From Myxococcales bacterium (GTDB lineage: Bacteria > Myxococcota > B64-G9): a stretch of DNA of 64,000 nucleotides. The notes beneath the pieces were generated by a model, which was not told where the DNA came from, did no database searches, and worked only from the letters and a program-made list of their open reading frames with translations. The DNA lies in the NCBI GenBank assembly GCA_012798435.1, contig JAAZNF010000092.1, forward strand, positions 62,001 to 126,000. The letters run 5' to 3'. The position numbers and the translations under genes were made by a program. Shown here piece by piece: positions 2,140 to 20,941 of the stretch (its first letter is position 1; every line of letters begins with the position of its first letter).

Positions 2140-2143
2140 GCGC

Positions 2144-2605: not shown

Positions 2606-2613
2606 GCCGGAGA

Positions 2614-2641: not shown

Positions 2642-4095
2642 GCGGTGGAGGTATCGTCGTTCTGCAGCCGCAGGATGAGCCGGCCGAGCAGGCCGAGGAA
2701 CAGGACCAGGGTGATGATGGCCAGGACCAGCGTGAGCCCCGCCAGGGTGAGCCCCAGGGCCGGGCCGATGCGGGTGAAGCGCAGCAGGAGCTGCACCAGC
2801 ACCGAAAGCGGGATGGTGAAGCCCAGCATCCAGCCGATACGTCCCACCCGCTCCCGGATCCGCTCCATGTCCAGTGCACGCCCCAGGCGGAAAAACGCCA
2901 CCAGCAGCGCCACCATGCCGACGAGCGCCAGCACCTGGCCGCCGAGCGAAAGCCAGGGCGCGGTCTTCACCGCGGCCATGACCGTCGAGATGCGGCTGGA
3001 GAAGATGCCAAAGACGAGCGCGGTGGCGGCCAGATCCGAGAGCACGCCGGCGATCATGACGCCGAGCGCGAGGCCCGCGGGTGCGCGCGCGCGGGTGGAG
3101 GCCGGCAGCGTGGTGGCGAAGCGGGCCATGCCGGCGACCATGACCACGCCGCAGGCGAGCGAGAGCAGCGAGGTCGTTACCAGGAAGAACTTCATCGCCC
3201 CGAGCGAGCGGCCGAGCTGGGCCAGCACCAGCAGGATCATTCCCGAGACGGTGACGCCGAGCCGCCACAGGAGCGCGCTGCGGTAGGTGGCGAGGCCCCG
3301 GCTCACCCCGGCCGGAAACTCCACAGCCGGAGAAGCTGGCGCGGCGGCCTCGCTCGTCACCGCCGGTTTCAGGACCACCGCCCGGGCGTGGGCCAGCGAA
3401 AGGAAAAAGATCCCGCTGGCGAAGGCCAGGGAGAACGCTGTCGCCAGGGAGAAATGAACCCACGGGTGATCGAGCTGGAGCGGCCGCTCGATGACGCCGC
3501 TGTACAGCACGATGTTGAATCCGTACAGCAGGGTCGCGCCGGCGACGGTGGCGATGAGGGGCCGGACGAGCGACGGCCCCCCGTGGTCTCGTTGGCGCCC
3601 CATGAAGGTCGCGATCAAGCAAAAGATCGCCGCGACCTCGATGGCCACACCTGCCCAGAACAGGATGGGCCAGAGCACGCGCCATGTGTCGGGGTCCAGC
3701 TTCGAACCGGCCACCTGCGCCAGGTGCACGATGAGGTAGAAGGTGTCCAGGAGCGCCTGCGCTCCCCACAGGATCAGCGCGGCCCGGGCCAGGGCCGCTT
3801 TGTCGCGAGGGAACGTCGAGGTGTACCAAAACAGCCCCAGCACCATCCCCAGGACGGACAGCCAAACGAGACCCTGGAAGATGGGATACAGGTATTCGGT
3901 CCAGGAGAGGTCGTCGTAGCCGCCGTCCTCCGCAAACAAGGCCTTCCGGGTCAACACGGCGAGCAACCGGGGGACGATGGCCAACACTGCCTGGATGAGC
4001 ACGCAGCCGGCGAAGAGCAGCAAGCCGGTGCCGGCACGCTCGGCTGGCCGCTGCGCGGTTGAGGGCGCGGGGTCGAGGGTTCCGGGTGTCTCCAT
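2638..4095 (-). CDS. Polytopic membrane protein, function unknown
   Basis: 485 residues, with roughly eleven or twelve hydrophobic segments across nearly its whole length, starting near residue 20, and short charged loops. A periplasm- or cytoplasm-facing segment near 235-260 is rich in Ala/Pro/Glu. I do not recognise a conserved catalytic motif. The start at 4095 is chosen over an upstream in-frame ATG because AAGGAGC lies 4-10 nt before it. The gene stands 32 bp before the tetraheme cytochrome operon, whose promoter overlaps its stop, so it could be co-transcribed with it. It has no visible relation to the aminotransferase upstream, from which it is separated by about 350 bp of palindromic DNA. 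Membrane protein is safe; any transport or respiratory role would be a guess. Confidence 0.75.
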   Translation of the reverse strand: METPGTLDPAPSTAQRPAERAGTGLLLFAGCVLIQAVLAIVPRLLAVLTRKALFAEDGGYDDLSWTEYLYPIFQGLVWLSVLGMVLGLFWYTSTFPRDKAALARAALILWGAQALLDTFYLIVHLAQVAGSKLDPDTWRVLWPILFWAGVAIEVAAIFCLIATFMGRQRDHGGPSLVRPLIATVAGATLLYGFNIVLYSGVIERPLQLDHPWVHFSLATAFSLAFASGIFFLSLAHARAVVLKPAVTSEAAAPASPAVEFPAGVSRGLATYRSALLWRLGVTVSGMILLVLAQLGRSLGAMKFFLVTTSLLSLACGVVMVAGMARFATTLPASTRARAPAGLALGVMIAGVLSDLAATALVFGIFSSRISTVMAAVKTAPWLSLGGQVLALVGMVALLVAFFRLGRALDMERIRERVGRIGWMLGFTIPLSVLVQLLLRFTRIGPALGLTLAGLTLVLAIITLVLFLGLLGRLILRLQNDDTSTA

Positions 4096-4183
4096 GCGAA
4101 GCTCCTTTTTATCAGCACCAGTAGGCGGAACAAGGGGTCGGTATTTCGCAGTTGTCACCGAGAGAGATATCTGTCTAGCCTTC

Positions 4184-4255
4184 GCCCGACCTGCGCCGTC
4201 AAGGGTTTTCAATCGCCTTGCGACTCGCTTCGCTCGCCCTTGACGGCGGTCGGGC
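4184..4255. repeat. Long imperfect inverted repeat in intergenic region
   Basis: Arms 4184-4205 and 4237-4255 (core GCCCGACC and GCCGTCAAGGG, with a 3-nt bulge) pair to form a stem of about 19 bp around a 31-nt loop. There is no T-tract on either side, so it is not a classical intrinsic terminator. This is one of three palindromes in the 352-bp gap 4096-4447; I see no gene there. Confidence 0.6.
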
Positions 4256-5865: not shown

Positions 5866-5894
5866 TTGACAACTTGGCCAAGTCGCCACATACT
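5866..5894 (+). promoter_or_regulatory. arsR operon promoter with embedded 12-bp palindromic operator
   Basis: TTGACA (5866-5871), 17 bp, CATACT (5889-5894). The spacer holds a perfect palindrome, ACTTGGCCAAGT (5872-5883), directly after the -35 box. A repressor dimer bound there would block RNA polymerase, which is how ArsR-family repressors normally control their own operons. Assignment of the palindrome to this ArsR is inference from position. Confidence 0.75.
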
Positions 5895-5918
5895 TGTCCG
5901 GGTCTGTGGGAGGTGTGC

Positions 5919-6215
5919 ATGGTCGCCAAGGGTGAGAACTTTTTTCGGCGGCAGGCGCGGGTGCTCAAGGCGCTGGCGAACGAGTCTCGGCTCCAGATCG
6001 TCGACCGGCTCTCGCGCGGTGAGTGCTCGGTGGGCGAGCTGACGGAGCTGGTGGGCTCGGATCGCTCGACCGTGTCCAAGCACCTGTCCGTGCTTCGTGC
6101 ACACGGCATCGTGGACGACCGCCGGGAGGGGAACGTGGTGTACTACCGGCTGCTCACCCCCTGCGTGGTGAACTTCTTCTCCTGCGTCGCTCAGGTGATC
6201 AGGGAGGGCACATGA
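5919..6215 (+). CDS. ArsR/SmtB-family winged-helix metalloregulator
   Basis: 98 residues, typical for ArsR repressors, which bind DNA as dimers and release it when a metal or metalloid binds. The core runs from LKALANESRLQIVDRL (about 15-30) through SDRSTVSKHLSVLRAHGIV (recognition helix, about 46-65) to the wing REGNVVYYRL (about 70-78). The classic alpha3 motif ELCVCDL is not kept: only one Cys occurs there (GECSVGEL). Two further cysteines eight residues apart lie near the C-terminus (about 81 and 90), so the sensing site may be alpha5-type. ATG has GGGAGG 5 nt upstream. It is first in the operon, with a palindrome in its promoter. Ligand unknown: arsenite, copper, zinc or other. Confidence 0.9.
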   Translation: MVAKGENFFRRQARVLKALANESRLQIVDRLSRGECSVGELTELVGSDRSTVSKHLSVLRAHGIVDDRREGNVVYYRLLTPCVVNFFSCVAQVIREGT

Positions 6216-6292
6216 AAGACGATCCGCTCCTCCCCCCGTCCAGCTCGTCAACGGGGCCAGGTCGTCACGGTTGGCTGGGAGAGCCGATATGA
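6212..6292 (+). CDS. Possible 26-residue coupling ORF between arsR and the permease
   Basis: A 26-codon ORF whose ATG overlaps the arsR stop (ATGA at 6212-6215) and whose TGA overlaps the permease ATG (ATGA at 6289-6292). AGGGAGGGC lies just before its start. The peptide is rich in Ser and Pro with no recognised domain. Its two stop-start overlaps suggest a ribosome could pass from arsR to the permease through it. It may be a coupling or leader peptide or may not be a functional protein. Confidence 0.35.
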   Translation: MKDDPLLPPSSSSTGPGRHGWLGEPI

Positions 6293-7464
6293 GGGAACGG
6301 ACGAAACTTGGGCTGATCCTGGCCGTCTTCGCCGCCTGCTGGTTCCTGCCCACGGAGAGCGATCGGTTCTGGAGCGCCATCCAGGAGAGCCTGTCGCTCG
6401 TCAAGTGGTATGCGCGCGAGCACGTCCTGCTGTGCCTCATCCCGGCCTTCTTCATCGCCGGGGCCATCAGCGTGTTCGTGAGCCAGGGCGCGGTGATGAA
6501 GTACCTGGGACCGAAGGCGAAGAAGGCGGTCGCCTACCCCGTGGCCGCGGCCTCGGGGACCATCCTGGCGGTGTGCTCGTGTACGGTGCTGCCGCTGTTC
6601 GCCAGCATCCACAAGCGGGGGGCCGGGCTCGGGCCCGCCACCGCCTTCCTCTACTCGGGACCCGCCATCAACGTGCTGGCCATCATCCTCACCGCCCGGG
6701 TTCTCGGCCCCGAGCTGGGCATCGCCCGGGCGGTGGGCGCCATCTCGTTCGCGGTGATCATCGGCTTGCTGATGCACCTCATCTTCCGCAAAGAGGAGGC
6801 TGCGCGGCAGGCCGAAGGACCCGTCGTGATGCCGGATGAGGAGAAGGGCCGAGCCCTGTGGCAGGACGGGCTCTACTTCGCCGCCATGGTTGGCATCCTG
6901 GTCTTCGCCAACTTCGGCAAGCCCGCGGCCGGGGAAGCTGGCGTCTGGGCGGCGCTCCATTCGGTGAAGTGGATCGTGACGGGCGTGCTCGGGCTGGGCC
7001 TCGTCGCCAGCCTCGTCGCCTGGTTCAAGAAGGACGAGCTTTCGACCTGGGTCGACTCGAGCTGGACCTTCGCCAAGCAGATCCTGCCGCTCCTGCTCGG
7101 CGGGGTCCTGGTGGCGGGCTTGCTGCTCGGCGGGCCCGGTGGCTCGGAGCGTGGCCTCATCCCCAACTCCTGGATTCAGCAGGCCGTAGGCGGCAACTCG
7201 CTCCTCGCCAACCTGTTCGCCTCGGTCGTCGGCGCCTTCATGTACTTTGCCACGCTGACCGAGGTGCCGATCCTCGAAGGTCTGATCAAGTCGGGGATGG
7301 GCCAGGGACCGGCGCTCGCGCTGCTGCTTGCCGGACCGGCGCTTTCCCTGCCCAGCATGCTCGTCATCCGTAGCGTGATGGGGACCAAGAAGACCGTCGT
7401 ATTCGTCGGCCTGGTGATCGTCCTGTCCACGGTCGCGGGTTTGATCTATGGCGCGTTCTTCTAG
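6289..7464 (+). CDS. Permease of the SO_0444 / DUF318 (ArsP-like) family
   Basis: 391 residues and about ten membrane helices: an inner-membrane exporter. The signature CSCTVLPLFASIHKRGAGLGP (near residues 95-112) with SGPAINVLA just after is the hallmark of the DUF318/ArsP/SO_0444 permeases. These are reported to export trivalent organoarsenicals (ArsP) or Cu/Zn (SO_0444 type). A second copy of the half-signature (LLAGPALSLPSMLVI) occurs near 350, consistent with two repeats. The start at 6289 has GGGAGAG upstream; the track to 6271 would need a TTG start without a site. The ArsR gene upstream and thiol proteins downstream support export of a thiophilic metal or metalloid. Substrate not decidable here. 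Confidence 0.85.
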   Translation: MRERTKLGLILAVFAACWFLPTESDRFWSAIQESLSLVKWYAREHVLLCLIPAFFIAGAISVFVSQGAVMKYLGPKAKKAVAYPVAAASGTILAVCSCTVLPLFASIHKRGAGLGPATAFLYSGPAINVLAIILTARVLGPELGIARAVGAISFAVIIGLLMHLIFRKEEAARQAEGPVVMPDEEKGRALWQDGLYFAAMVGILVFANFGKPAAGEAGVWAALHSVKWIVTGVLGLGLVASLVAWFKKDELSTWVDSSWTFAKQILPLLLGGVLVAGLLLGGPGGSERGLIPNSWIQQAVGGNSLLANLFASVVGAFMYFATLTEVPILEGLIKSGMGQGPALALLLAGPALSLPSMLVIRSVMGTKKTVVFVGLVIVLSTVAGLIYGAFF

Positions 7465-7522
7465 ACCCACGGGATAGGTCGTCGAACCTGGGAGCGTATC
7501 CCCCCAAAAAAAGGAAGAACCG

Positions 7523-7888
7523 ATGGAAGACCAAGGCAAGAAGCTCGTGGTGCTGGCCTGCTCGGGCGCCTCCAATACGGGGGCCTATTCGGACCTGGCC
7601 GCTCGCAGGCTGATGGCTGGCGGGAAGGGCAAGATGCTCTGCCTGGCGCGGTTCGCGGTGGATCCGAAGTTCGCAGAGACATCGAAGCGAGAGCTCGAAA
7701 CGCTCGGCGACGACGGCGAACTGGTGATCCTCGACGGCTGCCCGGTCAATTGCGCCGAAGAGATTATGAAGAAGAGCGGTTTTATGAAGTATCGCCACAT
7801 CAACACCACGGATTTTGGCATTATCAAGGGAAAGACCCCGGTGACGGAGGACAAGATCGGCGAAATCGTGAAGGCGGTCATTCATTAG
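7523..7888 (+). CDS. DGC-domain putative zinc-binding protein (first copy)
   Basis: 121 residues, cytoplasmic. It matches the DGC family (Pfam DGC domain), named for the conserved Asp-Gly-Cys. Here DGCPVNC lies near residue 72, with an earlier ACSGASNTG (Cys at about 13) and a MLCLA cysteine near 38, giving the four family cysteines presumed to bind metal. The biochemical role of the family is not established. AAGGAAG lies 12 nt upstream. It follows the permease by 58 bp and precedes a small membrane protein. A second, diverged DGC gene lies in the same operon at 8367. Such proteins may hand metal or a thiol-bound species to the permease; this is inference from context. Confidence 0.8.
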   Translation: MEDQGKKLVVLACSGASNTGAYSDLAARRLMAGGKGKMLCLARFAVDPKFAETSKRELETLGDDGELVILDGCPVNCAEEIMKKSGFMKYRHINTTDFGIIKGKTPVTEDKIGEIVKAVIH

Positions 7889-7897
7889 AGGTGGGAC

Positions 7898-8119
7898 ATG
7901 CCCGAACCCCAAGACATCTACGCTCACACCCACGCGCCAGTGGCGCCGGGGCAGCCCTGTCAGTGCGAGCAGCAGACCGGTGACGCGCTGTTCTGGATCG
8001 CCGTCGTCCTGGGGAGCTTCTGGCTCATCGATCATCTCAAGAGCTGGATTCGGAAACTCAAACACCGCCGCGTGAGCGGGACCGTCACGGGCGATTCCAT
8101 GGAGGAGAAGAAACCATGA
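7898..8119 (+). CDS. Small single-span membrane protein with N-terminal Cys pair
   Basis: 73 residues. The N-terminal 30 residues contain two His (HTHAP) and a CQCEQ pair. A single hydrophobic helix (about residues 31-46) follows, then a basic stretch (KLKHRR) that suggests the C-terminus is cytoplasmic and the Cys/His part periplasmic. Start ATG has GAGGTGGG upstream, 9 bp after the DGC gene; the stop overlaps the next ATG (ATGA). I recognise no family. Its Cys/His content and place between a DGC protein and a thioredoxin suggest metal or thiol handling at the membrane. Confidence 0.7.
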   Translation: MPEPQDIYAHTHAPVAPGQPCQCEQQTGDALFWIAVVLGSFWLIDHLKSWIRKLKHRRVSGTVTGDSMEEKKP

Positions 8120-8370
8120 AGATCAAGGTGTTGGGAACCGGATGCCCGAAGTGCAAGAAACTCTTCGCCGAGGCCGAGAAGGCCATCGCCCAGTCGGGGC
8201 AGGCGGCCGAGCTCGAGAAGGTCGAGAAGATCGACGACATCATGAAGTACGGCGTCATGATGACGCCCGCGCTCGTCATCGACGAGGAGGTCAAGGCGAG
8301 CGGCCGCATCGCGTCGGTCTCGGAGATCGTCACCTGGATCACCACGGCCGCCGCGAAGGCCAAACCATGA
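8116..8370 (+). CDS. Small thioredoxin-fold redox protein (CPKC)
   Basis: 84 residues. It matches the small thioredoxin-like family often annotated as redox-active disulfide protein 2 (MTH895 type). VLGTGCPKCKKL near residues 5-15 gives the CPKC active site, and MMTPALVIDEE near 53-62 carries the cis-proline of the thioredoxin fold. It is cytoplasmic, with no signal peptide, so it could reduce the cysteines of the DGC proteins or the regulator. It is joined to both neighbours by ATGA overlaps (8116-8119 and 8367-8370). This gene type is common next to ArsR-permease pairs in anaerobes, which supports the operon reading. Confidence 0.85.
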   Translation: MKIKVLGTGCPKCKKLFAEAEKAIAQSGQAAELEKVEKIDDIMKYGVMMTPALVIDEEVKASGRIASVSEIVTWITTAAAKAKP

Positions 8371-8771
8371 GCGGCGGCCAAGACTGTTGCTGCGCGACCG
8401 GGGTCCCGACGCTCATCTTCGCCTGCTCGGGCTCGTCGAACGTCGGCCAGCTCACGAACAGCCTGGCGCTGCGCCTCGCCCGCGAGAGCGTCGGGACGAT
8501 GTCCTGCCTCGCGGGGGTGGGCGCGCACTTGAGCGGTTTTGTCGTGCCGGCCAAGGACTGCGAGCGCCTGGTGGTCCTCGACGGCTGTGAGCACCGCTGC
8601 GCGCTCAAGACCCTCGAGCACGTGGAGGCGAAGCCACACGTCTACTTGAACCTCGCGGAACTCGGCTTCGTGAAGAAACACGGGGTACTCGCGGACGAAG
8701 CGGAGCTCGAACGAGCGCACGCCCTCGCGATCGACCGGTTGAAGGGATTTGCATGCTCGACAGCTTCGTAG
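8367..8771 (+). CDS. DGC-domain putative zinc-binding protein (second copy)
   Basis: 134 residues. Second DGC family member of the operon, clearly diverged from the first: LIFACSGSSNVGQL near residue 16, MSCLAGVGA near 45 and VVLDGCEHRCALK near 71 align with the four-cysteine scheme. It has an additional N-terminal Cys triplet (CCC at residues 7-9) absent from the first copy, and a Cys near the C-terminus. The start overlaps the thioredoxin stop; its 3' end overlaps ccdA by 19 bp. Two paralogues in one operon suggest either two substrates or a relay. Family biochemistry is not known, so no reaction is assigned. Confidence 0.8.
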   Translation: MSGGQDCCCATGVPTLIFACSGSSNVGQLTNSLALRLARESVGTMSCLAGVGAHLSGFVVPAKDCERLVVLDGCEHRCALKTLEHVEAKPHVYLNLAELGFVKKHGVLADEAELERAHALAIDRLKGFACSTAS

Positions 8772-9460
8772 CCAACGCCAACCAGTACATCCACACCAAC
8801 CCGTGGCTGGCGCTGGTCGCGGTGTTCGTGGGCGGCATCCTCACCGCCTCGAACCCCTGCGTGCTGGCGATGATCCCTTTGATGATGAGCTTCGTCGCCG
8901 GGCGCAAGGAGGACAAGCTCGGGGTGCTGCGCGCCTTCCTCTTCTCGCTCGTTTTCATCCTCGGGCTCGCGGTGACCTTCACCGTGCTCGGGATGATCGC
9001 CGCGCTCGCCGGAAAGATGTACGGAGACGTGTCGGGGGTCTGGAACTGGATCGTCGCGGCCGTGTGCGTCGTGATGGGCCTGCACCTTATGGGCGTGCTC
9101 ACCATTCCCATCCCGTCGTTGGGCGGAAAGCTGCAACCGAAGACCCGAGGATTGCTCGGCGCGCTCGTGCTGGGCCTGCTCTTCGGCGTCGTCTCGGCTC
9201 CCTGCGCCGCGCCCATCCTCGTGGTCCTCCTGACCTACCTCGCCGGTTCGGGCTCCTCGGTCGCGTGGGGCGGCTCGCTCCTCCTCGTCTATGCCCTCGG
9301 GCACAGCGTCCTGATCCTGATCGCCGGGACGTCAATGGGAGCCGCGAGACAGCTCATCGAAAACAAGAAGGCCACGCGGGTGCTGGAGCTCCTGCGCAGA
9401 GGCGCGGGTGCGGCGATCGTGCTCGTCGGGGTCTACTTCGCTTACAGAGGTCTGCAATGA
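8753..9460 (+). CDS. ccdA: CcdA-family membrane thiol-disulfide transporter
   Basis: 235 residues with six predicted membrane helices. CcdA/DsbD-beta proteins pass electrons from cytoplasmic thioredoxin across the inner membrane to periplasmic thiols. The two redox cysteines are visible in their usual settings: ASNPCVLAMIPL (about residue 43) and SAPCAAPIL (about 152). The start lies inside the 3' end of the DGC gene and the stop overlaps the next ATG. Flanked by a cytoplasmic thioredoxin-like protein upstream and a periplasmic CxC lipoprotein downstream, it fits a complete trans-membrane reducing relay dedicated to this operon. It could also serve cytochrome c maturation; the octaheme cytochrome lies further downstream. 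Confidence 0.85.
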   Translation: MLDSFVANANQYIHTNPWLALVAVFVGGILTASNPCVLAMIPLMMSFVAGRKEDKLGVLRAFLFSLVFILGLAVTFTVLGMIAALAGKMYGDVSGVWNWIVAAVCVVMGLHLMGVLTIPIPSLGGKLQPKTRGLLGALVLGLLFGVVSAPCAAPILVVLLTYLAGSGSSVAWGGSLLLVYALGHSVLILIAGTSMGAARQLIENKKATRVLELLRRGAGAAIVLVGVYFAYRGLQ

Positions 9461-9894
9461 TGACGCAACTCACGAGTCTGCTGATTGGTTTGGCCCTGTC
9501 GTTCGCGGCGGCTGGGTGCAGCAACCCGTCTAATGCCGCGCCGGGAGCGGCGAGCGCCAGCACGGCCAACGCCCCCCTGGCCGCGTCCACGAGTCCTGCG
9601 GCCACGAAAGTCACGAAGATCGTCTTCGTCGGCAAGCAGAACGCGTGCGACTGCACGAGGAGGACCATCGACGCTGGCTGGGCTGCCCTTCAGAAGGCGC
9701 TCGGCACGCCGGCCAAGCTGCCGGTCGAGCGGCTTCAAATCGACACGGAGGGAGAGATGGTCGCGCCGTATCGAAAGCAGAAGCCCATGATGGCGCTGCC
9801 CGCGATCTACTTCGTCGACGGCAAGAACGTGGTCCTGGAGCTGCTCCAGGGCGAGGTCAGCGAGGCCCAAATCGCTGCAGCGCTGGGGAAGTGA
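9457..9894 (+). CDS. Thioredoxin-like lipoprotein with CxC motif
   Basis: 145 residues. Lipoprotein signal with lipobox AAGC (Cys about residue 21), then an Ala/Ser/Pro linker to about residue 50. A thioredoxin-like domain follows: IVFVGKQN then ACDCTRR, giving CDC near residue 65, and MMALPAIYFVDG near 110, where the proline would be the cis-Pro. CxC instead of CxxC favours disulfide isomerisation or metal binding over simple reduction. It overlaps ccdA by 4 bp (ATGA, two tandem ATGs), so it is the natural periplasmic partner of CcdA. No closer family known to me; the thioredoxin fold is inferred from motif order. Confidence 0.7.
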   Translation: MMTQLTSLLIGLALSFAAAGCSNPSNAAPGAASASTANAPLAASTSPAATKVTKIVFVGKQNACDCTRRTIDAGWAALQKALGTPAKLPVERLQIDTEGEMVAPYRKQKPMMALPAIYFVDGKNVVLELLQGEVSEAQIAAALGK

Positions 9895-9957
9895 GAATTG
9901 CGAATGCGCAATGGGGCACACAACAGGGAGAGCACGGTCATATGGCCGAGAGGCCAA

Positions 9958-11307
9958 ATGCGCAGCGCCAGGTCCTTGCTCGCTGTCGGCCTCGCATGTG
10001 CCATCTTCGTGTCTCCCGCGTACGCCGACTCGACTACCTCTTCTCCGGGACTCACCGTCATCGACTTACCCAAGGCGCTCGAGCTGGCCTTGCAGAATAA
10101 CCCCGAGCTGAAGGCGGCGCAGAGCGATATCGGCGTGGCCTCCGCGCAGCGTGACCGCGCGGCCTCGGGACATTGGCCTACGTTGAGGGCGCAGGCCGGC
10201 TGGACGGAGTACCGCCGCAACCAGCGGCTCTATCCCGCAACGAGCCCCGGTGAGCCGGCGGTCATTTCACATCACCTGCTCGGGGGCGACGTCGTCCTGT
10301 CCTTTCCTCTCTACTCTGGTGGGCGCATCAGCGGGAACGTGGACGTGGCCGAGCTTGCAGAGGACTCTGCGCGCGATACGAGCCAGTGGACGAAAGTCGA
10401 CCTCGTCTTCCAGGTGACGGCGACGTACTACTCGATCCTCGCGCAACGACGGCTGATCGCGGCGCTCACCTCCGCTGAAGAAGCGATGGCCAAGAACATC
10501 GAGCGGCTCGACGCGCTCGTGGCCGAGAGGAAGGCCGCGCCGCTGGATCGTCAGCGCATGGAGGTCCGCCTGGCGGCTCTCAAGCAGCGCCGGGTCCAGG
10601 AGGAAGCTGCGCTCAAGGTCCAGACGCTCAGCCTGCTGTCGCTCATCGGGCTCAGCGGCGACCGAGCGTCATTCGAAATCGTCGGCGACCTGGGCAAGCC
10701 GGGCGGGGCGCCGGCGCCTTCTTCGGAGAGCCTCGTGCAGGACGCCGTCGCGCGTCGCCCCGACTGTCGCGCCTTGAGGTCCGCGGTACGCGCCCAGGAG
10801 CGTCGGATCGATGTGGCCCAGGCGGGCCACTACCCTTCGCTCCTGGTCCAAGGTTCCTACGGTATGCGCTGGGGCCTGTGGCCGAGCGAGCAGCCGGACG
10901 GTGCAAGCGCCCTGGCCGATGTTGGCCAGGTGGGGCTTTACCTCGATGTGCCGATCTTCGAAGGCGGTCGGGTCACCGCCGAGGTGCGCGAGCAGCGGGC
11001 CCGGCTGAGCTCGATGCGGGAGCGGCTGCGGCAGGCCGAGCTGCGAGTACGCCTCGAGGTCGAGGCAGCCCTACTCGACTACAGGGCGGCCATGGAGCGA
11101 GTAGCACTGTCGGAGGCGACCATCGGTCAGGCCACGGAGGCGTTCCGTGTGGAGACCGAGAAGTACACGGAAGGCAAGAGCACCATTTCGGACGTTCTGA
11201 GTGCGCAGTCCGATCTCTTGGATGCCGAGGCCAGCCGCGCACGTGCGCTGGCTGACGCCAACATCGCGGCGGCCGCCCTCACGCGAGCTCTGGGAGAAAC
11301 GGCATGA
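9958..11307 (+). CDS. TolC-like outer membrane efflux protein
   Basis: 449 residues from the ATG at 9958, chosen because a clean signal peptide follows (to AYA-DS near residue 23); upstream in-frame starts lack one. The protein shows the TolC/OEP layout: two repeats of long coiled-coil helices, each opened by a strand, with the repeat openings LPKALELALQNNPELKAAQSD near 36 and SESLVQDAVARRPDCRAL near 240. It is the outer-membrane channel of the tripartite pump completed by the next two genes. Its stop overlaps the adaptor start (ATGA at 11304). A 60-bp gap separates it from the thiol genes, with no terminator seen, so it is probably in the same transcript. Confidence 0.85.
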   Translation: MRSARSLLAVGLACAIFVSPAYADSTTSSPGLTVIDLPKALELALQNNPELKAAQSDIGVASAQRDRAASGHWPTLRAQAGWTEYRRNQRLYPATSPGEPAVISHHLLGGDVVLSFPLYSGGRISGNVDVAELAEDSARDTSQWTKVDLVFQVTATYYSILAQRRLIAALTSAEEAMAKNIERLDALVAERKAAPLDRQRMEVRLAALKQRRVQEEAALKVQTLSLLSLIGLSGDRASFEIVGDLGKPGGAPAPSSESLVQDAVARRPDCRALRSAVRAQERRIDVAQAGHYPSLLVQGSYGMRWGLWPSEQPDGASALADVGQVGLYLDVPIFEGGRVTAEVREQRARLSSMRERLRQAELRVRLEVEAALLDYRAAMERVALSEATIGQATEAFRVETEKYTEGKSTISDVLSAQSDLLDAEASRARALADANIAAAALTRALGETA

Positions 11308-12446
11308 CCTCTAGAAAACACGTGATCTGGACGGCCGGCGTCATCGCGGTGGTCCTCGCCGTGATCGCCGGGGTCGTTCTCCTGGGTCGGCAGAACGGGC
11401 AGCCTCCGGCGGCGAGCAAGAAGAGTGATGGGCTCGCCGTCGAAGTACGGGTCGCCAAGGCGAAGACCGACACGATCCGTAGGGTTCGCGAGTTGGCCGC
11501 CACGGTCGAGCCAACCCGAATGGCACGTCTGGCATCGCCCGCCGAGGGACCGGTAGACAGATTGCTCGTGCGCGAGGGGGACCTCGTCAAGAGCGGGCAG
11601 CTCCTCGTGGTCATCGGCCGCAACCGCACTACGCGCGCCAAGCTGCTGTCGGATCGCGAGGAGCTTCGCAGGCTCCAAGACGAGTTCGAGCGTATGGAGC
11701 GGTTGGTCGCCAAGGGGGCGGTTGCCGGTGAGATGCTCGACAAGACGCGAGCCGACCTCGAGCGTGCCAAGGCCGTCGTCGAAGCGGGTGAGGAGGTGAC
11801 CTCCGATTTCCAAATTCGCGCCCCCTGGTCCGGCGTTGTCTCCCAAGTCCTGGTCCAGGAGGGTAACTACGTCGCGCCGCGGGTTGTCCTCTTAGAGATC
11901 TTCGATCCGGCGAGCCTGGTCGTCCGCATCGCGCTGCCCGAGGCCATCGCGCTCAAGGTTCAGCTTGGCGCCGAGGCGCGGGTGCGTTTCGATGCTTTGC
12001 CCGATGACGAGGTCGTCGGCGAGGTGACGCGGCTCTACCCGGAGCTGGATCGAAAGCTGCGCATGCGCGTCGCCGAGGTCGGCGTCACTAACCAGAAGGC
12101 TCTCGCGCCGGGAATGTTCGCGCGAGTTCACGTGACCGTGGAGGTGGTGCCCGAAGCGGTGGTCGTTCCGGCCACGGCCGTGGTGACCACACCCAAGCAG
12201 GAGCAGGCGCTGTTCGTCGTCGAGGGCGAGGTCGCACATCTACGGGTGATCAAGGCCGGCATCGAAGAGAGCGGCCGTCTTCAGATCGTATCGGGCGTGA
12301 GCGCGGGAGAGGTCGTCGTTGCCTCCGGCCACCAGAAGCTGAAGGACAGTGCGCGGATTCGGGTCAAGGAGGATGAGCCGAAGGCCGAGGGTCGGCCCGC
12401 GAGCCCGCCGAGCAAGGCAGGCAACCCAGAGGTCGGCCGACCATGA
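11304..12446 (+). CDS. RND periplasmic adaptor (membrane fusion protein)
   Basis: 380 residues. One N-terminal membrane anchor (about 8-27), then the lipoyl/barrel-sandwich halves (SPAEGPVDRLLVREGDLVKSGQ near 80 and IRAPWSGVVSQVLVQEGNYV near 170). A short coiled-coil hairpin lies between (about 115-160), then a beta-barrel domain and a membrane-proximal domain. The tail is Pro/Lys/Glu-rich. It links the RND pump in the inner membrane to the TolC channel. It lacks the long His/Met-rich N-terminal extension often seen in CusB-type copper adaptors, so substrate is not obvious. It overlaps both neighbours by 4 bp, giving a strict TolC-MFP-RND operon. Confidence 0.9.
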   Translation: MTSRKHVIWTAGVIAVVLAVIAGVVLLGRQNGQPPAASKKSDGLAVEVRVAKAKTDTIRRVRELAATVEPTRMARLASPAEGPVDRLLVREGDLVKSGQLLVVIGRNRTTRAKLLSDREELRRLQDEFERMERLVAKGAVAGEMLDKTRADLERAKAVVEAGEEVTSDFQIRAPWSGVVSQVLVQEGNYVAPRVVLLEIFDPASLVVRIALPEAIALKVQLGAEARVRFDALPDDEVVGEVTRLYPELDRKLRMRVAEVGVTNQKALAPGMFARVHVTVEVVPEAVVVPATAVVTTPKQEQALFVVEGEVAHLRVIKAGIEESGRLQIVSGVSAGEVVVASGHQKLKDSARIRVKEDEPKAEGRPASPPSKAGNPEVGRP

Positions 12447-15400: not shown

Positions 15401-15577
15401 CTGCAGCCGATGGCCGTGGCGGCGATCGGCGGGTTGCTGGTGACGGTCGCCGTCGCGCTCTATCTGGTGCCGGTGTTGTATGCGGTGGTGACGCGAGGGA
15501 CTCATGAGTTGAACGCTGTCGTGGTTGCCGATGTGTCAGAACCAAGTCCGCTTGATACAGAAGGAGAGAATCCATGA
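12443..15577 (+). CDS. RND-family efflux transporter permease
   Basis: 1044 residues, the full length of an AcrB/CusA-type proton-driven pump. TM1 at about 12-30, two large periplasmic loops (about 35-335 and 565-870), and TM2-6 and TM8-12 around them. TM4 carries VDLDNSIIVIEN with acidic residues for proton relay, while the equivalent TM10 segment reads VVAAHVTEGVLLL, with a His and Glu instead of the usual Asn-Asn. In the second periplasmic loop a CGSSGGC (near residue 776) puts two cysteines six apart just before RVRDVARV, which is unusual. It lacks an obvious CusA methionine triad. Context suggests a thiophilic metal, metalloid or thiol conjugate as substrate. Confidence 0.88.
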   Translation: MRITEVSTKRPLSTAALVLVLLVLGVYGMARLPVDFLPDVTYPLVKVHIWWRGATPEEIERQVADPVERQLSTVDGLDYLESSSIEGMYTLQVNFRYGVDVDVAYQDALAAMARVARELPKDLEPPIVIKADPSQLPVLQLTVSSGGWDLVKLRDWVDRWLRDQLVAVQGVAGTEVVGGLKREIRVHIDPMVVERHQLGLDDLVKRLAKENIELSAGRVTAGKRELIARTTAEFASLDELRNVVVARSGEARLLLGDIATVEDSHEEVRVITRLDGKPCVKLSVLKQADANTVEVASAVMKRLDELRPGLPPGVSLGVVENQAEYVESALTGVRNTAIEAAILLVLLMALFLGNWRQVVAMTWALPFTILTNFAWMNLAGISLNIFSLGGLLVAIAVDLDNSIIVIENITRLRRERPELGSARLVVAAVQEVGPSVLASTLSFLVLFLPFLLVPGLASLLFRDLVLVVAGVMCISFVNAIAVTPVIMALLLRSSAGTTSETRFERLVHRVTLAYGRSLGFVLRWRAATIAVFIGIAALGLVSVSQLGTEFLPRMDDGRVMVKVRLPTGAALGQMDGALKHVESLVKDDPLIESSFALVGGKVWGLYTYEIANEGELNIQLIPRGKRDLTTAQYVTRLEKVLAEHPLPAGKAMAMQMKTKGIRGSSLSEIEVKVRGSDTNRLFALAREVGERMSKAPFLTNVYQSLDMSKPELQVSIDRFRIADLGLTASDVATSLQRLVRGEVASRYRDGDEYYGIRLMVPEPMITSRASLEELPLFCGSSGGCTRVRDVARVVEAVGPVEIVREDQIKQVVVRADPSGVSVGEALARLKSSLGAMDWPQSYEVKYGGQAELMGEAKQSLMLVLGFALFFAFVILVVQFNRLRIPSIILGTVPFSLAGVALLLAATSIPVGTTVVIGLLVVVAAHVTEGVLLLTYAETARSTENTDAVHAVIKAATTRFRPRLMTALGVIIGLSPIALNLEDGGDMLQPMAVAAIGGLLVTVAVALYLVPVLYAVVTRGTHELNAVVVADVSEPSPLDTEGENP

Positions 15578-16194
15578 TTAACCCCAAGGACTACTACGAG
15601 CACGGCCTCGCGCTGCACGGTCACAAGTGCCCCGCGATGCCCATGGGACTACGTGTGGGCGCGGCCGCGATGAACGCCCTGGGCGTCGAGCGCGCCAAGG
15701 ATGGCCAGCTTCTGGCGCTGGTCGAGCTTGGCGACGACCATTGCGCCACCTGCTTCGCCGACGGCGTGCAGATGATCACCGGCTGCACCTTCGGCAAGGG
15801 CAACATCAAGAAGCTGCACTACGGCAAGTGGGGCGTCACGCTGGTCGATGTCGCGACAGGCCGGGCCGTTCGGGTCACGCCCAAGGCCGAGGCCATGCTC
15901 GCGAACAAACAGACGGAGTTCTTCAAGGAGTACCGCGAGAAGGGTGTCCCCGCCTCCAAGGTGCCGCTCGAAGTCGTCGAACCGCTGGTTCAACGGGTCA
16001 TGGGCGCGCCCGATGAGAAGCTGCTCTCCGTGGGCAAGCCCTTCCAGTACGAGGTCCAACGCCGGCCGCACTCATTCTCGAGCCTGGTGTGCGACAATTG
16101 CGGCGAGATGGTGGTCGAGGGCTACGCGCGACTTGTCGGTGACAAGAGGGTCTGCATCCCCTGCCAGGAGAAGCTGACCGGCGCCAAGGAATGA
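15574..16194 (+). CDS. FmdE-family protein with C-terminal zinc ribbon
   Basis: 206 residues. FmdE (formylmethanofuran dehydrogenase subunit E-like) family: the N-terminal HGHKCPAMPMGLRVG (about residues 14-28) is the family signature, with DDHCATCFADGVQMITGCTFGKGN (about 58-80) adding three cysteines. The C-terminal CDNCGEMVVEGYARL...RVCIPC (about 170-198) is a four-Cys zinc ribbon. Outside methanogens the role of FmdE proteins is unclear; they often occur near molybdenum, metal and electron-transfer genes. Soluble, no signal peptide. AAGGAGAG lies just upstream, and ATGA overlaps the RND stop. A cofactor or metal-chaperone role is a hypothesis only. Confidence 0.85.
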   Translation: MINPKDYYEHGLALHGHKCPAMPMGLRVGAAAMNALGVERAKDGQLLALVELGDDHCATCFADGVQMITGCTFGKGNIKKLHYGKWGVTLVDVATGRAVRVTPKAEAMLANKQTEFFKEYREKGVPASKVPLEVVEPLVQRVMGAPDEKLLSVGKPFQYEVQRRPHSFSSLVCDNCGEMVVEGYARLVGDKRVCIPCQEKLTGAKE

Positions 16195-16216
16195 GCCCGA
16201 GGAGAACGCACGACGC

Positions 16217-16960
16217 ATGACCGCCATCATCGCAGGGCTCATCACGTTCGGATTCACCGCGCTTTTGACCATCGCCGGCGTCGGCGCGGCGTTCGTGTTG
16301 ATCCCTGTCTTCCTGGCCCTCGGCATCGAGGTCCACACCGCGATGGCGACCGCGCTGCTCCTCAACGCCGTCGCCATGTCGGTCGCCTCCGTCAACTTCG
16401 TCCGCAAGCGGCTCGTCGTCTGGAAGGTGGCGCTGCCGATGGTGGTGGTCGCGTCGACGCTGTCGCCGCTCGGCGCGTGGGTTAGCCAGGGGCTGGATCG
16501 GACCGTGCTCCTCTGGCTGTTCGTCGGCTTCCTGGTTTTTGCGGCGCTGATGATGCTCCTCTACACACCGCGGGCGCGGGAGACGACGAGTGGGAGCGGA
16601 ACCCTGCTCGTCGTCGGTCTCGGCGTTGGCGGCGTGGCCGGCTTTCTCGGCGGGCTGCTCGGGGTCGGCGGGGGCAACATCATTGTCCCCGCCCTCGTCG
16701 CCTATGGGTTCGATCCGAAGAAGGCGTCGGCCAGCACCTCGTTCGTCGTCATCTTCTCGTCCCTGACGGGGTTCCTCGGCCACATGTCGCTCGCCGGCAT
16801 GAACTACGCCTTGCTCGGCTGGACCACGGCCGGCTCGGCCGCAGGGGCCTTGCTCGGTTCGTGGCTCATGACCGACAAGCTCAAGGGCCGACAGGTCAAG
16901 TTGCTGATTGGCGTGGTGCTGCTGGGCATCGCGGCGAAGATGGCTTGGGGGCTCCTTTGA
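16217..16960 (+). CDS. TauE/SafE-family sulfite/anion exporter
   Basis: 247 residues with eight predicted helices in two repeats, as usual for TauE/SafE (DUF81) permeases. These export sulfite, sulfoacetate or other small organic or sulfur anions. The second repeat has FLGGLLGVGGGNIIVPAL near 150, matching the family glycine-rich helix, and the first has the degenerate counterpart ITFGFTALLTIAGVGAAFVLIPVFL near 7. GAGGAGAA is 12 nt upstream of the ATG. The stop overlaps a TTG start of the porin gene. A sulfur-anion exporter beside an octaheme cytochrome and thiol proteins hints at sulfur chemistry in this operon; substrate is not determined. Confidence 0.85.
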   Translation: MTAIIAGLITFGFTALLTIAGVGAAFVLIPVFLALGIEVHTAMATALLLNAVAMSVASVNFVRKRLVVWKVALPMVVVASTLSPLGAWVSQGLDRTVLLWLFVGFLVFAALMMLLYTPRARETTSGSGTLLVVGLGVGGVAGFLGGLLGVGGGNIIVPALVAYGFDPKKASASTSFVVIFSSLTGFLGHMSLAGMNYALLGWTTAGSAAGALLGSWLMTDKLKGRQVKLLIGVVLLGIAAKMAWGLL

Positions 16961-18354
16961 GGCTGTCGCGCCACCAGAACGTCGGGAGTCCCAGGCTCGG
17001 GCTCGCCGCTTGTCTTGTCGGCCTGCTCGTGATGGCTGGGCGCTCCGTGGCGCGTGCGGGCGAGGAAACCGAGAAGCCGAACAGCCAGGACGAGTTTTGG
17101 TCAAACCTCAAGAACATGCGGGCCGGCCCCGTGACGTTCGACCTCGGTGGGCAGGTGCGGCTGCGCTACGAATACGACGACGGCTTATCCATCAAGGGCT
17201 TTGAACCGGGCGGCCACGATCAGCTTCTGCTCGAGCGCATACGCCTCGACTTCTCCGCGCGCTTCTGGGATCGGCCGCGCCTCTTCCTTCAGCTTCAGGA
17301 TGCCCATCCCTTTCTGACCAGGCTCGGGCAGGCGGACTTCCCGACGAGCAGCCCGATCGAGGACACGCTCGACATCCGTCAGCTCTACGCCGAGTGGCTG
17401 AAGATCGGGGACAGCCCATTCGGCTTCCGGATCGGAAGGCAGCAGATCGCTTACGGCGACCAGCGCGTGTTCGGTCCCGGCAACTGGGGCAACACCGGCC
17501 GCTTCGCCTGGGACGCAGCCATGTTGAAGCTCGACACCGACTGGCTCGCGACAGACCTGTGGGTCGGCAAGTTCCTGACCTACCAGACCGACGTCTGGCC
17601 CAACCGCTCGAACGAGGACTTCTGGACGCTGGTCGGCTACCTGCAGCTCAAGGGGTTGCCGTTGCGCCTCGATCTCTTCTACGTCTTCAAGTACGACGGC
17701 AGCGGCAAGAGCGCGGGCGAGTCGGGCGCGGGCGACCTGTCGACCCACACCATCGGCTTCCAGGTTGAAGGCCGCGCCGCGAAGGTGATCGACCTGGCCT
17801 GCACCTTCGTCGGCCAGTTCGGGCGCTTCGGGCGTGACGCGGTGAGAGCCTTCGGCGCCAACATCAAACTCGGGGTCACCGCGCCCATGTCATGGAAGCC
17901 GAGGCTCGGCGTTCAGTACACCTGGGGCTCGGGCGACGCGGACCCGGACGACGGCGTGCACCAGACGTTCGATGGCGTGTTCGGCGGCCGCGACATCTTC
18001 TTCTATGGGTATCTCAACCTCTTCTTCTGGGCGAACTTGCACGACGCCGAGGTGGACTTCAGCGTGAAGCCCTGGTCAGGGCTCACCTTCTACGTCGAGT
18101 ACCATCACTTCAACCTGGATCAGGCCAGGGACGCCTGGTACACGACGGGTCTCAAGGCCTACCGGCGCGACCCGAACGGCGGATCGGGGACCACGCTCGG
18201 CGACGAGCTCGACATGCGCGCCGTCCTCAGCCTGTGGAACCACCTCGAGCTGATGGCCGGCTACGGCCGATTCTTTCCCGGCGGATTCGTGAGGGCCACG
18301 GGCGTTTCACCGGCGGCCAACTGGTACTTCGTCCAGGGAGCCTATTCCTGGTGA
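16957..18354 (+). CDS. Outer-membrane beta-barrel porin (alginate-export-like domain)
   Basis: 465 residues starting at TTG (TTGA overlap with the tauE stop); this start gives a complete signal peptide ending near AxA-G at residue 32. The rest alternates short amphipathic strands with aromatic ends (for example QVRLRYEYD, FGFRIGRQQIAYGD with a conserved RQQ...YGD, GVQYTWGSGD) and ends in Trp, as expected for an 18-strand-type barrel. RIGRQQIAYGDQRVFG near 155-170 is typical of the alginate_exp (AlgE-like) porin family. Located directly before an octaheme cytochrome, it could be a solute porin or the barrel of a porin-cytochrome conduit. No decision possible from sequence alone. Confidence 0.8.
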   Translation: MRLSRHQNVGSPRLGLAACLVGLLVMAGRSVARAGEETEKPNSQDEFWSNLKNMRAGPVTFDLGGQVRLRYEYDDGLSIKGFEPGGHDQLLLERIRLDFSARFWDRPRLFLQLQDAHPFLTRLGQADFPTSSPIEDTLDIRQLYAEWLKIGDSPFGFRIGRQQIAYGDQRVFGPGNWGNTGRFAWDAAMLKLDTDWLATDLWVGKFLTYQTDVWPNRSNEDFWTLVGYLQLKGLPLRLDLFYVFKYDGSGKSAGESGAGDLSTHTIGFQVEGRAAKVIDLACTFVGQFGRFGRDAVRAFGANIKLGVTAPMSWKPRLGVQYTWGSGDADPDDGVHQTFDGVFGGRDIFFYGYLNLFFWANLHDAEVDFSVKPWSGLTFYVEYHHFNLDQARDAWYTTGLKAYRRDPNGGSGTTLGDELDMRAVLSLWNHLELMAGYGRFFPGGFVRATGVSPAANWYFVQGAYSW

Positions 18355-18365
18355 AAGGAGCGAGC

Positions 18366-20876
18366 ATGATGAGACGGACACTCACAAGCCAGGGGATGAG
18401 CACGACGGGGCTCGCCGTGTCGGGCCTCGTGGCGCTCGGCCTCGCCGTCGGCTGTGGCGACCTAGAGCCGCAGGGCGTGCCGGTTCGACCGGAGGATGCC
18501 CCCGCCCGTGCCTCGGGTGTCTGCCCGCCGTTCCAGCTCCGCGACGAGGCGGGCAACGTCATCGACCCGGTAAAGGGCGTGAACGACACGGTGCCGTACT
18601 CGCCGCGGCAGACCTGCGGCGCCGCTGGCTGTCACGACTACGGCAAGATCACCGAGGGCTTCCACTTCACCCAGGGCAAGGGGGAGCGGGTGCCGGCCAA
18701 GATGGCCGAGCGCTACGCGTGGGTGACCTCGCCCGGCAACTACGGCGGCAACTGGTGCTCGCCCGCGCCGCTGTACCGCCAGCTCGCGCCCAAGAAGAAC
18801 CAAAGCGCCCGCGAGATCGACATGACCTCGTTCGAGTTCGTCACCGCCACCTGCGGCAACTGCCACCCGGGTGGCGGCCCGCTGGAGCTTGACCGCGACG
18901 GGAAGCGCTACGACGCCTGGATGCGCGACCCCACCTCGGGCCTGACCGCGGGCGGGGAGAACGGGCTCGACGGCGACTACTTCAAGGCGCGCTGGTCCGA
19001 GACGGGCGTGATCGAGGCGGACTGCCTGCTGTGCCACCAGCCCGAGTACGACTTCAAACGCCGCAACGCGGAGCTTGCGAACCTGAACTTCCGCTGGGCG
19101 GCGACATCCGGGGCCGGCTTCGGGGCCGTGACCGGGAAGGTGGGCGCCGGCGAGCAGCCGACCGTCACCTACGACAAGAACCGCTTCGACGCCGAGGGCA
19201 ACGTCCTCGTCCACATCGCCCCCGAGCCGCGCAACGAAACCTGCCTCACCTGCCATGCCAAGCCCGATTGGAAGAAGCGTGGCGCCAGCTACTCCACGCG
19301 CACCGATGTCCATATGGCCGCCGGGCTGCGCTGCGTGGACTGCCACGCGGCCGGCAGCAACGCGGCCGATCCGCGCATCCGAGGCCGCGAGGTCCATCAG
19401 TTCGGCAAGGGTGACGACCCCTCTGGCTTCGTGCGCAACGACCTCGACAACACCGTCCGCTCCTGTGAGAGCTGCCACCTCGAGGGCTGGCGCAACGCGC
19501 CGCGCGCCTCTCACGCCTGGCTGCCGCCGCTGCACCTGGAGAAGCTCGCCTGCCAGGCCTGCCACATCCCGACCCGCGCGGTGAAGAGCGCGCTGGTTCA
19601 GGCCAGCGACGTCTACAACCCCGCGCCGCGGATCACGCCGCCGGGAAAGCACATCTGGACCTTCTACGACCAGGACATGGCGTTCTGGAATCACTACGGC
19701 GAGCTCGAGCTGTTCTCGAACAAGGACCAGCCGACCGACGTCACACGGCCGACACTCTTTCGCTACCAGGGCAAGATCTACCCGGGCAATCGGGTGCACA
19801 GCGCCTGGGTGGGCTTCGAGGAGCAGGGGAAGCCGGGACTCAACCAGCTCTTCATGAAGGACTTCTTCCAGATGTGGGCCCAGCACCGGACCGATCCCAA
19901 GAGCAAGTACCCGGAGCTGGCGAAGATCACCGATGACAACCAGGACGGCATCATCGAGGTGAACCGGCCCGAGGAGATCGACGCGCTGCTCTCGGCGACG
20001 AAGGCATTTCTTGCGTCGACGGGCTTCCCGCTCGAGGGCCGGCGCTTGGTATGGGTCTCGGACAGCAAGGCGTACACCTCGGCGAGCGAGCCCCGGGAGC
20101 TGCCACGAGAGGAGTGGGAGGCCACGGCCTACGCCTCGGTGTACAAGTTCTCGCACGACGTCTCGCCCGCCCGGGCCGCGCTCGGCGCCGGGGGTTGCAC
20201 CGACTGCCACCGCCCGGGCTCGCCGTTCTTCCAGGGGGCGGTCCTCGATGTGGTTTTCGATGGCGACGGCGCGCAACCGCGCTGGGCGCCCAATCACCGG
20301 ATCCTCGGCCTGTCGTCGTCCTGGGTGACGCTGGGCGCGTTCCGCGAGGCCGGGCTCAAGCCCGTGGTCTACGGCCTCGGCGCCGCCGTCCTGCTGCTGC
20401 TCGCCGGGCTCGGCCTCCGTCGTCTGCTCGTCGCTCGGCTTGGCGCGCGTCCGCACCGCGCCGCGCTGCTCGCGAGCGCCGCCTCCGGTATCGGGGTGGT
20501 GGGACTGCTCATCCTCGCGGCATCGCCCGACTGGTTGAGCTATGTCATTGTCAGGCGCTTCACGCTCGACGCGAACCACGCCTGGGTCTCTCTCCTCTGC
20601 TTCGGCATCGGGGCGGCGACGGCGTTTCTTCCAGTGGCGGCCTCGGGTTGGCGAAACAAATCGCTGCGGTTGCTCAACCTCGTGATCTGGACGGGCCTCG
20701 CGGCCGGCGCCGTATCGGGCGCGCTGATGTTCGCCAAGCTTCCGGCGCTGGCCAGCTTGAATCGGCTGGCCTACACCGGCCTGGAAGTCGGCCTGGCGAT
20801 AGCACTTCTCGGTGCCTGCGGCTCGCTCTTGCTTCGGCTGGCGGCATCGGCCGCCACCAATGCCGGGAAGGCGTGA
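18366..20876 (+). CDS. Octaheme c-type cytochrome lipoprotein with C-terminal membrane domain
   Basis: 836 residues from the first of two tandem ATGs (AAAGGAG upstream). Lipobox LAVGC near residue 36. Eight heme motifs: one CX4CH (CGAAGCH, about residue 83) and seven CXXCH (CGNCH 162, CLLCH 219, CLTCH 292, CVDCH 322, CESCH 366, CQACH 395, CTDCH 611). The gap between the seventh and eighth is filled by a domain with an EF-hand-like DDNQDGIIEVNRPEE (near 520). After about residue 660 come five hydrophobic helices, with a His in DANHAWVSL. Octaheme cytochromes of the tetrathionate-reductase/hydroxylamine-oxidoreductase groups reduce or oxidise S or N compounds, but family membership here is unproven. 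The membrane part may exchange electrons with quinone. Confidence 0.8.
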   Translation: MMRRTLTSQGMSTTGLAVSGLVALGLAVGCGDLEPQGVPVRPEDAPARASGVCPPFQLRDEAGNVIDPVKGVNDTVPYSPRQTCGAAGCHDYGKITEGFHFTQGKGERVPAKMAERYAWVTSPGNYGGNWCSPAPLYRQLAPKKNQSAREIDMTSFEFVTATCGNCHPGGGPLELDRDGKRYDAWMRDPTSGLTAGGENGLDGDYFKARWSETGVIEADCLLCHQPEYDFKRRNAELANLNFRWAATSGAGFGAVTGKVGAGEQPTVTYDKNRFDAEGNVLVHIAPEPRNETCLTCHAKPDWKKRGASYSTRTDVHMAAGLRCVDCHAAGSNAADPRIRGREVHQFGKGDDPSGFVRNDLDNTVRSCESCHLEGWRNAPRASHAWLPPLHLEKLACQACHIPTRAVKSALVQASDVYNPAPRITPPGKHIWTFYDQDMAFWNHYGELELFSNKDQPTDVTRPTLFRYQGKIYPGNRVHSAWVGFEEQGKPGLNQLFMKDFFQMWAQHRTDPKSKYPELAKITDDNQDGIIEVNRPEEIDALLSATKAFLASTGFPLEGRRLVWVSDSKAYTSASEPRELPREEWEATAYASVYKFSHDVSPARAALGAGGCTDCHRPGSPFFQGAVLDVVFDGDGAQPRWAPNHRILGLSSSWVTLGAFREAGLKPVVYGLGAAVLLLLAGLGLRRLLVARLGARPHRAALLASAASGIGVVGLLILAASPDWLSYVIVRRFTLDANHAWVSLLCFGIGAATAFLPVAASGWRNKSLRLLNLVIWTGLAAGAVSGALMFAKLPALASLNRLAYTGLEVGLAIALLGACGSLLLRLAASAATNAGKA

Positions 20877-20884
20877 CCCGGATT

Positions 20885-20941
20885 CCCGGCGGGCGGTCCC
20901 TGTCGACGGGTTGGCCGCTGCTCGGCTGGACCGCCGCCGGG
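20885..20941 (+). terminator. Strong hairpin after the arsR-cytochrome operon
   Basis: Arms 20885-20899 (CCCGGCGGGCGGTCC) and 20928-20941 (GGACCGCCGCCGGG) pair with one bulge around a 28-nt loop, starting 9 bp after the cytochrome stop. There is no T-tract, so intrinsic termination is uncertain, but the position fits an operon end. Confidence 0.4.

Follow-up and report, generated by a model that had tools for sequence, protein, structure and literature searches.

The window analysed here, a 64-kb stretch of DNA (64,000 nucleotides) from a Myxococcales bacterium (assembly GCA_012798435.1, contig JAAZNF010000092.1, positions 62,001 to 126,000), belongs to a 5.05-Mb genome in 129 contigs and carries 15 plus-strand genes that span positions 5919-20876. 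We propose, with a probability of roughly 0.72, that these genes form one operon controlled by an ArsR repressor and that the operon, whose products reach from cytoplasm to outer membrane, serves to detoxify arsenic or a similar soft metalloid. Codon scores back every gene, and families were named by Pfam or NCBIfam profiles for most of them. In order, the genes encode ArsR, an ArsP-type permease, a DGC protein (DGC1), a 73-amino-acid membrane protein, an ArsE-type thioredoxin, a second DGC protein (DGC2), CcdA, a lipoprotein with a CxC motif, an outer-membrane factor (OMF), a periplasmic adaptor (MFP), an RND pump, FmdE, TauE, a porin and an octaheme cytochrome. The single-operon reading is supported by one promoter with an operator-like palindrome, by near-continuous gene packing and by the reappearance of its components next to arsenic genes in other lineages. 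An earlier, sequence-only reading had placed its genes correctly but counted 14 of them rather than 15, and the list of modules in its title left out FmdE.

That reading had treated the parts as one metalloid system, a view supported by modules that recur together at other loci. Conservation extends beyond ArsR, permease and DGC, with FmdE, TauE, porin and octaheme genes recurring alongside arsenic genes. Specifically, ArsR, permease, DGC or ArsE-type thioredoxin, CcdA, RND, FmdE-TauE, porin and octaheme genes recur jointly in varying order, often with ACR3 and ArsC. At locus L082 (Myxococcales AS27), the set minus RND is laid out as three adjacent units (ArsR-ArsP-thioredoxin-DGC2-CcdA-lipoprotein, CRP-FmdE-TauE and porin-octaheme), and the cytochrome is 71% identical to that of the window. 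On the L086 contig (Myxococcales SKS1.bin3, loci L157 and L158), every module plus ACR3-ArsC is found within 27 kb, arranged as OMF-MFP-RND-FmdE-TauE-porin, ArsR-ArsP-ArsE-ArsF-ArsG-FmdE-octaheme and ArsR-ACR3-ArsC. The order at L190 (ACR3-ArsC-ArsR-ArsP-thioredoxin-DGC-CcdA-FmdE-TauE-porin-octaheme) is almost that of the window, with the RND pump missing. Shorter sets include ArsR-ArsP-thioredoxin-DGC-octaheme at L159, in the genome of a Chthonomonas record, and an RND gene immediately ahead of the octaheme gene at L249 and L227. Because module orders differ between loci, shared descent of a single arrangement is disfavoured.

The best marker of the system is FmdE (15574-16194), which matches PF02663 at 107.2 bits (gathering score 22.9) and ends in a C4 zinc finger recognized by PF01258. 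Alignment reveals conserved HGHxC, C71 and C173/C176/C194/C197 residues, and a comparison with PDB entry 2gvi gives E=3.6e-31. Neither the 15 operon genes nor UbiA include another fmd or fwd gene. The gene is followed by a TauE/SafE-family anion exporter (16217-16960; PF01925, 132 bits) and an outer-membrane porin of the Alginate_exp family (16957-18354, start uncertain; PF13372, 186 bits). From a scan of 84,980 species we assembled 80 FmdE loci, down to about 60% identity, with 10-kb flanks that suffice to cover the operon, FmdE being central. TauE lies near FmdE in 68 of the 80 and either TauE or a chromate transporter (ChrA) in 74, while porins of two families are present in 33. Arsenic-related companions comprise ACR3 (25 loci), ArsC (17), ArsP (18), ArsR (26), ArsE-type thioredoxin (15), ArsF (8) and ArsG (7), CDF genes occur at 12 loci, and arsenic genes are present in 32 of the 62 long loci.

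Most companion families are more frequent in the 5 kb nearest FmdE than in the zone 5-10 kb away; for example, the densities per 100 kb are 11.6 versus 0.25 for TauE, 4.8 versus 0.25 for porin and 2.5 versus 0.5 for ArsC. Formal models confirm ACR3, ArsE, ArsF, ArsG and chromate transporter genes in these loci, and an ArsC example falls marginally below the arsenate-reductase cut-off (170.7 of 174.3). The taxa represented include Myxococcales, Planctomycetota, Zixibacteria, Spirochaetes, Bacteroidetes, Thiocapsa/Allochromatium and Gram-positives, and FmdE-TauE adjoins ACR3 and ArsC in Anaeromyxobacter terrae, A. oryzisoli and Tepidibacillus decaturensis. Tepidibacillus and Desulfotomaculum have no outer membrane, so FmdE-TauE cannot depend on a porin or OMF in these organisms. 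At four loci (L070, L072, L073 and L219) a chromate-transporter gene adjoins FmdE instead of TauE, and in one case porin and octaheme genes follow it immediately.

A sigma-70-like promoter (5866-5894, plus strand) precedes ArsR, with TTGACA at 5866-5871 and, after 17 nt, CATACT at 5889-5894. It is the sole such site detected between 5.6 and 22.5 kb, in a scan for the sigma-70-like consensus, which may not be that of the host; shuffled sequence averages 1.1 sites, so that about one is expected by chance. Within the promoter spacer lies a perfect 12-bp palindrome, ACTTGGCCAAGT (5872-5883), which has only this one exact copy in the 64-kb window and is likely to be the ArsR operator. Counterparts occur at L049/L094 (ACTTGGCCAA) and L082 (ACATGGCCAAGT), and these loci share with the window the layout of a -35 element plus operator ahead of ArsR. 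Furthermore, TTGACAACTTGGCCAACAT stands ahead of a close ArsR in the same-family genome G002, on the same contig as L094, and TTGACAACATGGCCAAGT ahead of the ArsR of L082. The ArsR/SmtB repressor itself (5919-6215; PF01022) scores 91 bits against NF033788 (cut-off 55) and carries Cys36, Cys82 and Cys89; Cys36 and the PCxxNFFxC pair are shared with ArsRs beside the same permease type. The window has, by sequence, one hallmark of an ars operon: an ArsR/SmtB repressor with metalloid-type cysteines and its own predicted operator. At L049:15936-16232 (G002), the permease gene after ArsR is shortened to 98 codons, and ArsR and operator look intact.

From DGC1 onward, neighbouring genes overlap or are separated by less than 25 bp, except at the uncertain OMF and porin starts. 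Between ArsR and the permease, a 26-codon open reading frame (6212-6292, plus strand) overlaps both flanking genes by ATGA and may be a real coupling frame. It is possible, although we do not favour it, that the genes are instead divided into two or three transcription units, ArsR to lipoprotein (5.9-9.9 kb), the RND pump (9.9-15.6 kb) and FmdE to octaheme (15.6-20.9 kb), an arrangement compatible with any other reading of function. The same modules do stand as separate units at L082 and L157/L158, and the RND module is present in some loci only. In contrast, of the two split points named in the sequence-only reading, that at 9895 is a gap of about 9 bp (the start codon is uncertain) and that at 15574 is a 4-bp overlap, and neither position has a sigma-70-like site in the scanned interval, where the promoter type of the host may differ. 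The G+C hairpin that the sequence-only reading saw after the cytochrome exists (about 20885-20941, plus strand) and could mark the end of the operon, but as a terminator it is weak, with no T-run and a folding energy no stronger than that of shuffled sequence (z -1.34).

The last gene of the operon (18369-20876) encodes an octaheme c-type cytochrome with seven CxxCH motifs and one CX4CH, a cysteine at position 130 and a C-terminal membrane region of five helices. The CX4CH, at residue 83, is CxxCH in several relatives, and eight c-type heme sites are predicted from the motifs. The protein shares its eight heme motifs with the TIGR04315 octahemes, the named tetrathionate-reductase family, and is locally similar to them at residues 216-407. 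However, its score is only 50.8 bits where the cut-off is 375 (the best-scoring relative has 54.4), and it differs in its membrane region and in Cys or selenocysteine (Sec) at position 130. It belongs to an unnamed octaheme family. An AlphaFold model from two sequences had a pLDDT of 32 and was not used, and a PDB sequence search gave no match. A paralogous ArsR-octaheme cluster lies on contig C127 of the same genome (L019:5447-11763), and clusters like it are found in two same-family genomes (L026 and L028).

Profile searches of three additional groups of genomes, each at phylum level, yielded relatives of the cytochrome; their surroundings were scanned with the same queries, and a maximum-likelihood tree of 50 sequences was built. 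The clade of the window cytochrome has 12 rows, with support of 100/100, and its 11 other members come from four phylum-level groups. All 11 of these have an arsenic-family gene in their loci, and nine have ACR3 or ArsC, compared with none of 14 members of two outgroup clades in the same scan. The difference (Fisher p 2e-7) is uncorrected for relatedness, the profile was seeded with arsenic-linked sequences, and some neighbours are hidden by contig ends. In a wider clade of 41 rows, 26 are arsenic-linked.

Twenty relatives have an in-frame UGA that aligns precisely with Cys130 of the window (GGNWCSPAP), with the frame open on both sides. In all 20, the next conserved Leu is encoded by UUG, which makes a hairpin with an AGUU loop and a short G+C stem. 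This hairpin is found in none of six Cys forms that bear the motif; those six and the window use CUN. Single-sequence folding z-scores of the hairpin were not significant, and conservation is the evidence for it. Four of the UGA genomes were tested for tRNA-Sec, and all four, like the genome of the window, have one above the gathering score. The UGA forms are probable selenoproteins on these signals. They include L223, L225, L227, L249, L240, L163, L164, L023, L160 and others, some in arsenic clusters and with a membrane domain resembling the gamma subunit of formate dehydrogenase. One Sec member, which may or may not belong to the present family, is reported under TIGR04315 in a review, from genome annotation (PMC13188914). 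In the UGA forms tested the C-terminus is a cytochrome b561/formate dehydrogenase gamma domain, to which, in the comparison with one Sec relative, the five-helix C-terminus of the window was not recognizably homologous. Contact of the window cytochrome with quinone through its membrane region would thus be by analogy only.

Between ArsR and FmdE lie the transport and thiol genes. The permease (6289-7464), with a CSC motif, matches PF03773 (ArsP_1) at 253 bits (cut-off 32), a family that also includes Cu/Zn and organometal permeases, and it misses the SO_0444 and SaoE equivalog cut-offs (SaoE, 116 of 325 bits). DGC1 (7523-7888) and DGC2 (8367-8771) match PF08859 at 81.7 and 98.6 bits; the DGC2 model (pLDDT 85) has no solved-structure match below E 0.001, and PDB sequence searches with DGC2 or the lipoprotein gave no match. 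The 73-amino-acid protein between them (7898-8119) has a hydrophobic segment, a CQC motif, a supporting codon score and no family match. The small thioredoxin (8116-8370; CPKC) noted earlier is present, and its family is corrected to MTH895/ArsE (TIGR00412, 106 bits, cut-off 62). It is followed by a CcdA/DsbD-type transmembrane protein (8753-9460; PF02683, 89 bits) and the predicted lipoprotein (9457-9894), which takes the position that ArsF or a periplasmic thioredoxin would have and whose homologue adjoins CcdA at L082. The RND genes encode a TolC-type OMF (9904-11307, start at 9904 or 9976; PF02321), the MFP (11304-12446; TIGR01730, 181 bits, cut-off 95) and the pump (12443-15577; PF00873, 730 bits).

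This segment resembles arsEFG, whose parts bear the NCBIfam names nitrophenyl nitroreductase subunit and aromatic arsenical efflux permease, in that its ArsE-family thioredoxin gene precedes those for a CcdA/DsbD-like membrane protein and for a small lipoprotein of redox type. True ArsE-ArsF-ArsG accompanies FmdE at L066 and L078, and FmdE plus octaheme at L157/L158. Unlike arsEFG, the window CcdA matches only DsbD and TsoB models and misses ArsG (NF040495), and the lipoprotein has no match to any family or to ArsF (NF040494) and no BLAST alignment to an ArsF. The SAO/Tso selenoprotein organometal systems are also alike in their ArsR-type regulator, SO_0444/SaoE-type permease and DsbD-like protein and in selenium use, here among window relatives, but the window proteins fall far below the cut-off of every named model matched (SaoE as above, TsoR 40.7 of 115 and TsoB 83 of 805 bits).

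Such affinities bear on the idea that the genes are a generic efflux island for soft metals or organometals (Cu, Zn, Hg, Sb), gathered by horizontal transfer around no single substrate. The permease scores with the SO_0444 Cu/Zn and SaoE organometal families, CDF genes occur at FmdE loci, module order varies, and DGC is found in just 2 of 58 genomes of the phylum, which fits gene transfer. We regard this explanation as very unlikely: the recurrent companions include the arsenic-specific ArsC, ACR3, ArsF and ArsG, and the tight gene overlaps are unlike the product of loose gathering.

Several observations weigh against an arsenic function. As in ars operons of the arsR-ACR3/arsP-arsC type, the window has an ArsR with a promoter palindrome and an ArsP_1-family permease, and its relatives have ACR3 and ArsC alongside. 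Unlike them, it has no ArsC by profile scans and no ACR3 among its 15 genes (a gene of the SBF family, to which ACR3 belongs, lies on a separate contig of the genome), and it adds DGC, CcdA, RND, FmdE-TauE, porin and octaheme genes. Cu, Zn and other metals are also handled by SO_0444-type permeases and by ArsR proteins, and the arsenic score of the linkage analysis includes ArsP, the least specific marker. The CcdA and lipoprotein are not formal ArsG and ArsF, and the RND pump is nearer the multidrug (HAE-1) type (NF033617, 632 bits) than CusA/CzcA (430 bits). MFP, RND and ArsF genes are little or not at all enriched near FmdE, and a second arsenic-linked octaheme group (of the L184-L192 type) has no Cys130. 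We know of no biochemical link of FmdE or TauE to arsenic, and no paper tying FmdE to arsenic resistance was found in the literature searched, which largely excludes subscription journals. Two candidate papers, one on Acidiplasma that mentions both FmdE and arsenic (PMC12524180) and one on arsenite in Thioalkalivibrio (PMC6620896), contain no such link. Finally, the paralogous cluster on contig C127 comprises ArsR, an 8-heme (PF11783) and a 7-heme cytochrome, cytochrome b561, two Sulf_transp halves and a rhodanese, and is plainly sulfur-flavoured.

Because of that cluster, we retain as unlikely, without dismissing it, a system for sulfur or selenium oxyanions. Here ArsR would sense persulfide, as BigR and SqrR do, TauE would export sulfite or thiosulfate, and the octaheme would act on tetrathionate, sulfite, selenite or tellurite. 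TauE, rhodanese and YeeE-type Sulf_transp genes near FmdE in G002 point the same way, and the BigR model gives the window ArsR 57.6 bits but does not reach its cut-off of 155. The closest published parallel is in Geobacter, where loss of the ExtI porin impairs selenite and tellurite reduction and the partner is a Sec cytochrome, ExtKL (PMC5877670, PMC6148476). The extHIJKL locus likewise joins a porin to a multiheme cytochrome with Sec relatives and has, through ExtI, a reported metalloid oxyanion phenotype. In contrast, the window cytochrome gives no match to the ExtKL model (NF040886) and is an octaheme rather than a pentaheme, and the window has no rhodanese ExtH and an ArsR rather than a LysR regulator. 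The arsenic genes in all 11 loci of the cytochrome clade also argue against this explanation. Arsenic and sulfur together, as thioarsenates, could reconcile the two.

The inducer, substrate and electron flow of the operon are inferred from gene families, as follows. The three-Cys ArsR would let go of its operator on binding a trivalent arsenical, and the ArsP-type permease would carry the arsenical across the inner membrane. Thiol equivalents would pass from the DGC proteins and the ArsE-type thioredoxin through CcdA to the periplasmic CxC lipoprotein. FmdE, as a zinc/thiol protein, and the TauE exporter (ChrA in some relatives) might expel an anionic form, with the porin or the RND-OMF tunnel as its exit and the RND pump exporting across the outer membrane. 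The membrane-anchored octaheme, with Cys130 where relatives have Sec, may oxidize or reduce the arsenical in the periplasm and trade electrons with the quinone pool. Its candidate roles are oxidation of As(III), reduction of As(V), thioarsenate or an organoarsenical, and acceptance of electrons from the thiol relay.

We tentatively suggest that the octaheme is a further extracytoplasmic arsenic redox enzyme, linked to quinone, that uses hemes and a catalytic Cys or Sec instead of the molybdopterin of Aio, Arx and Arr, and that it is paired with an unrecognized FmdE-TauE-porin exit route for an arsenic anion. Annotation assigns FmdE-family genes to formylmethanofuran dehydrogenase, and it would give these octahemes a tetrathionate-reductase-like label. 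Their neighbourhoods place both in arsenic handling across several phyla. If that is right, the arsenic toolkit would gain an unnamed cytochrome family, many of whose members have Sec, together with a porin and a pair of small exporter proteins of the inner membrane. The arsenic linkage of close octaheme relatives in distantly related bacteria, and the use of Sec by some of them, suggest that arsenic is handled here in a way not yet described.

Other genes were observed around these systems. A CMD-domain (AhpD-like) protein and a DUF169 protein recur in arsenic islands beside ArsP or split ArsP genes (L158:2007-3074 and L082:18162-19359). In the window, upstream of the operon and divergent from it (751-4212, minus strand), lie ResB-like cytochrome c biogenesis genes and a gene for a small protein with heme-like motifs. 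Downstream of UbiA, positions 22429-26751 encode a 1440-amino-acid protein with many repeated, mutually similar segments.

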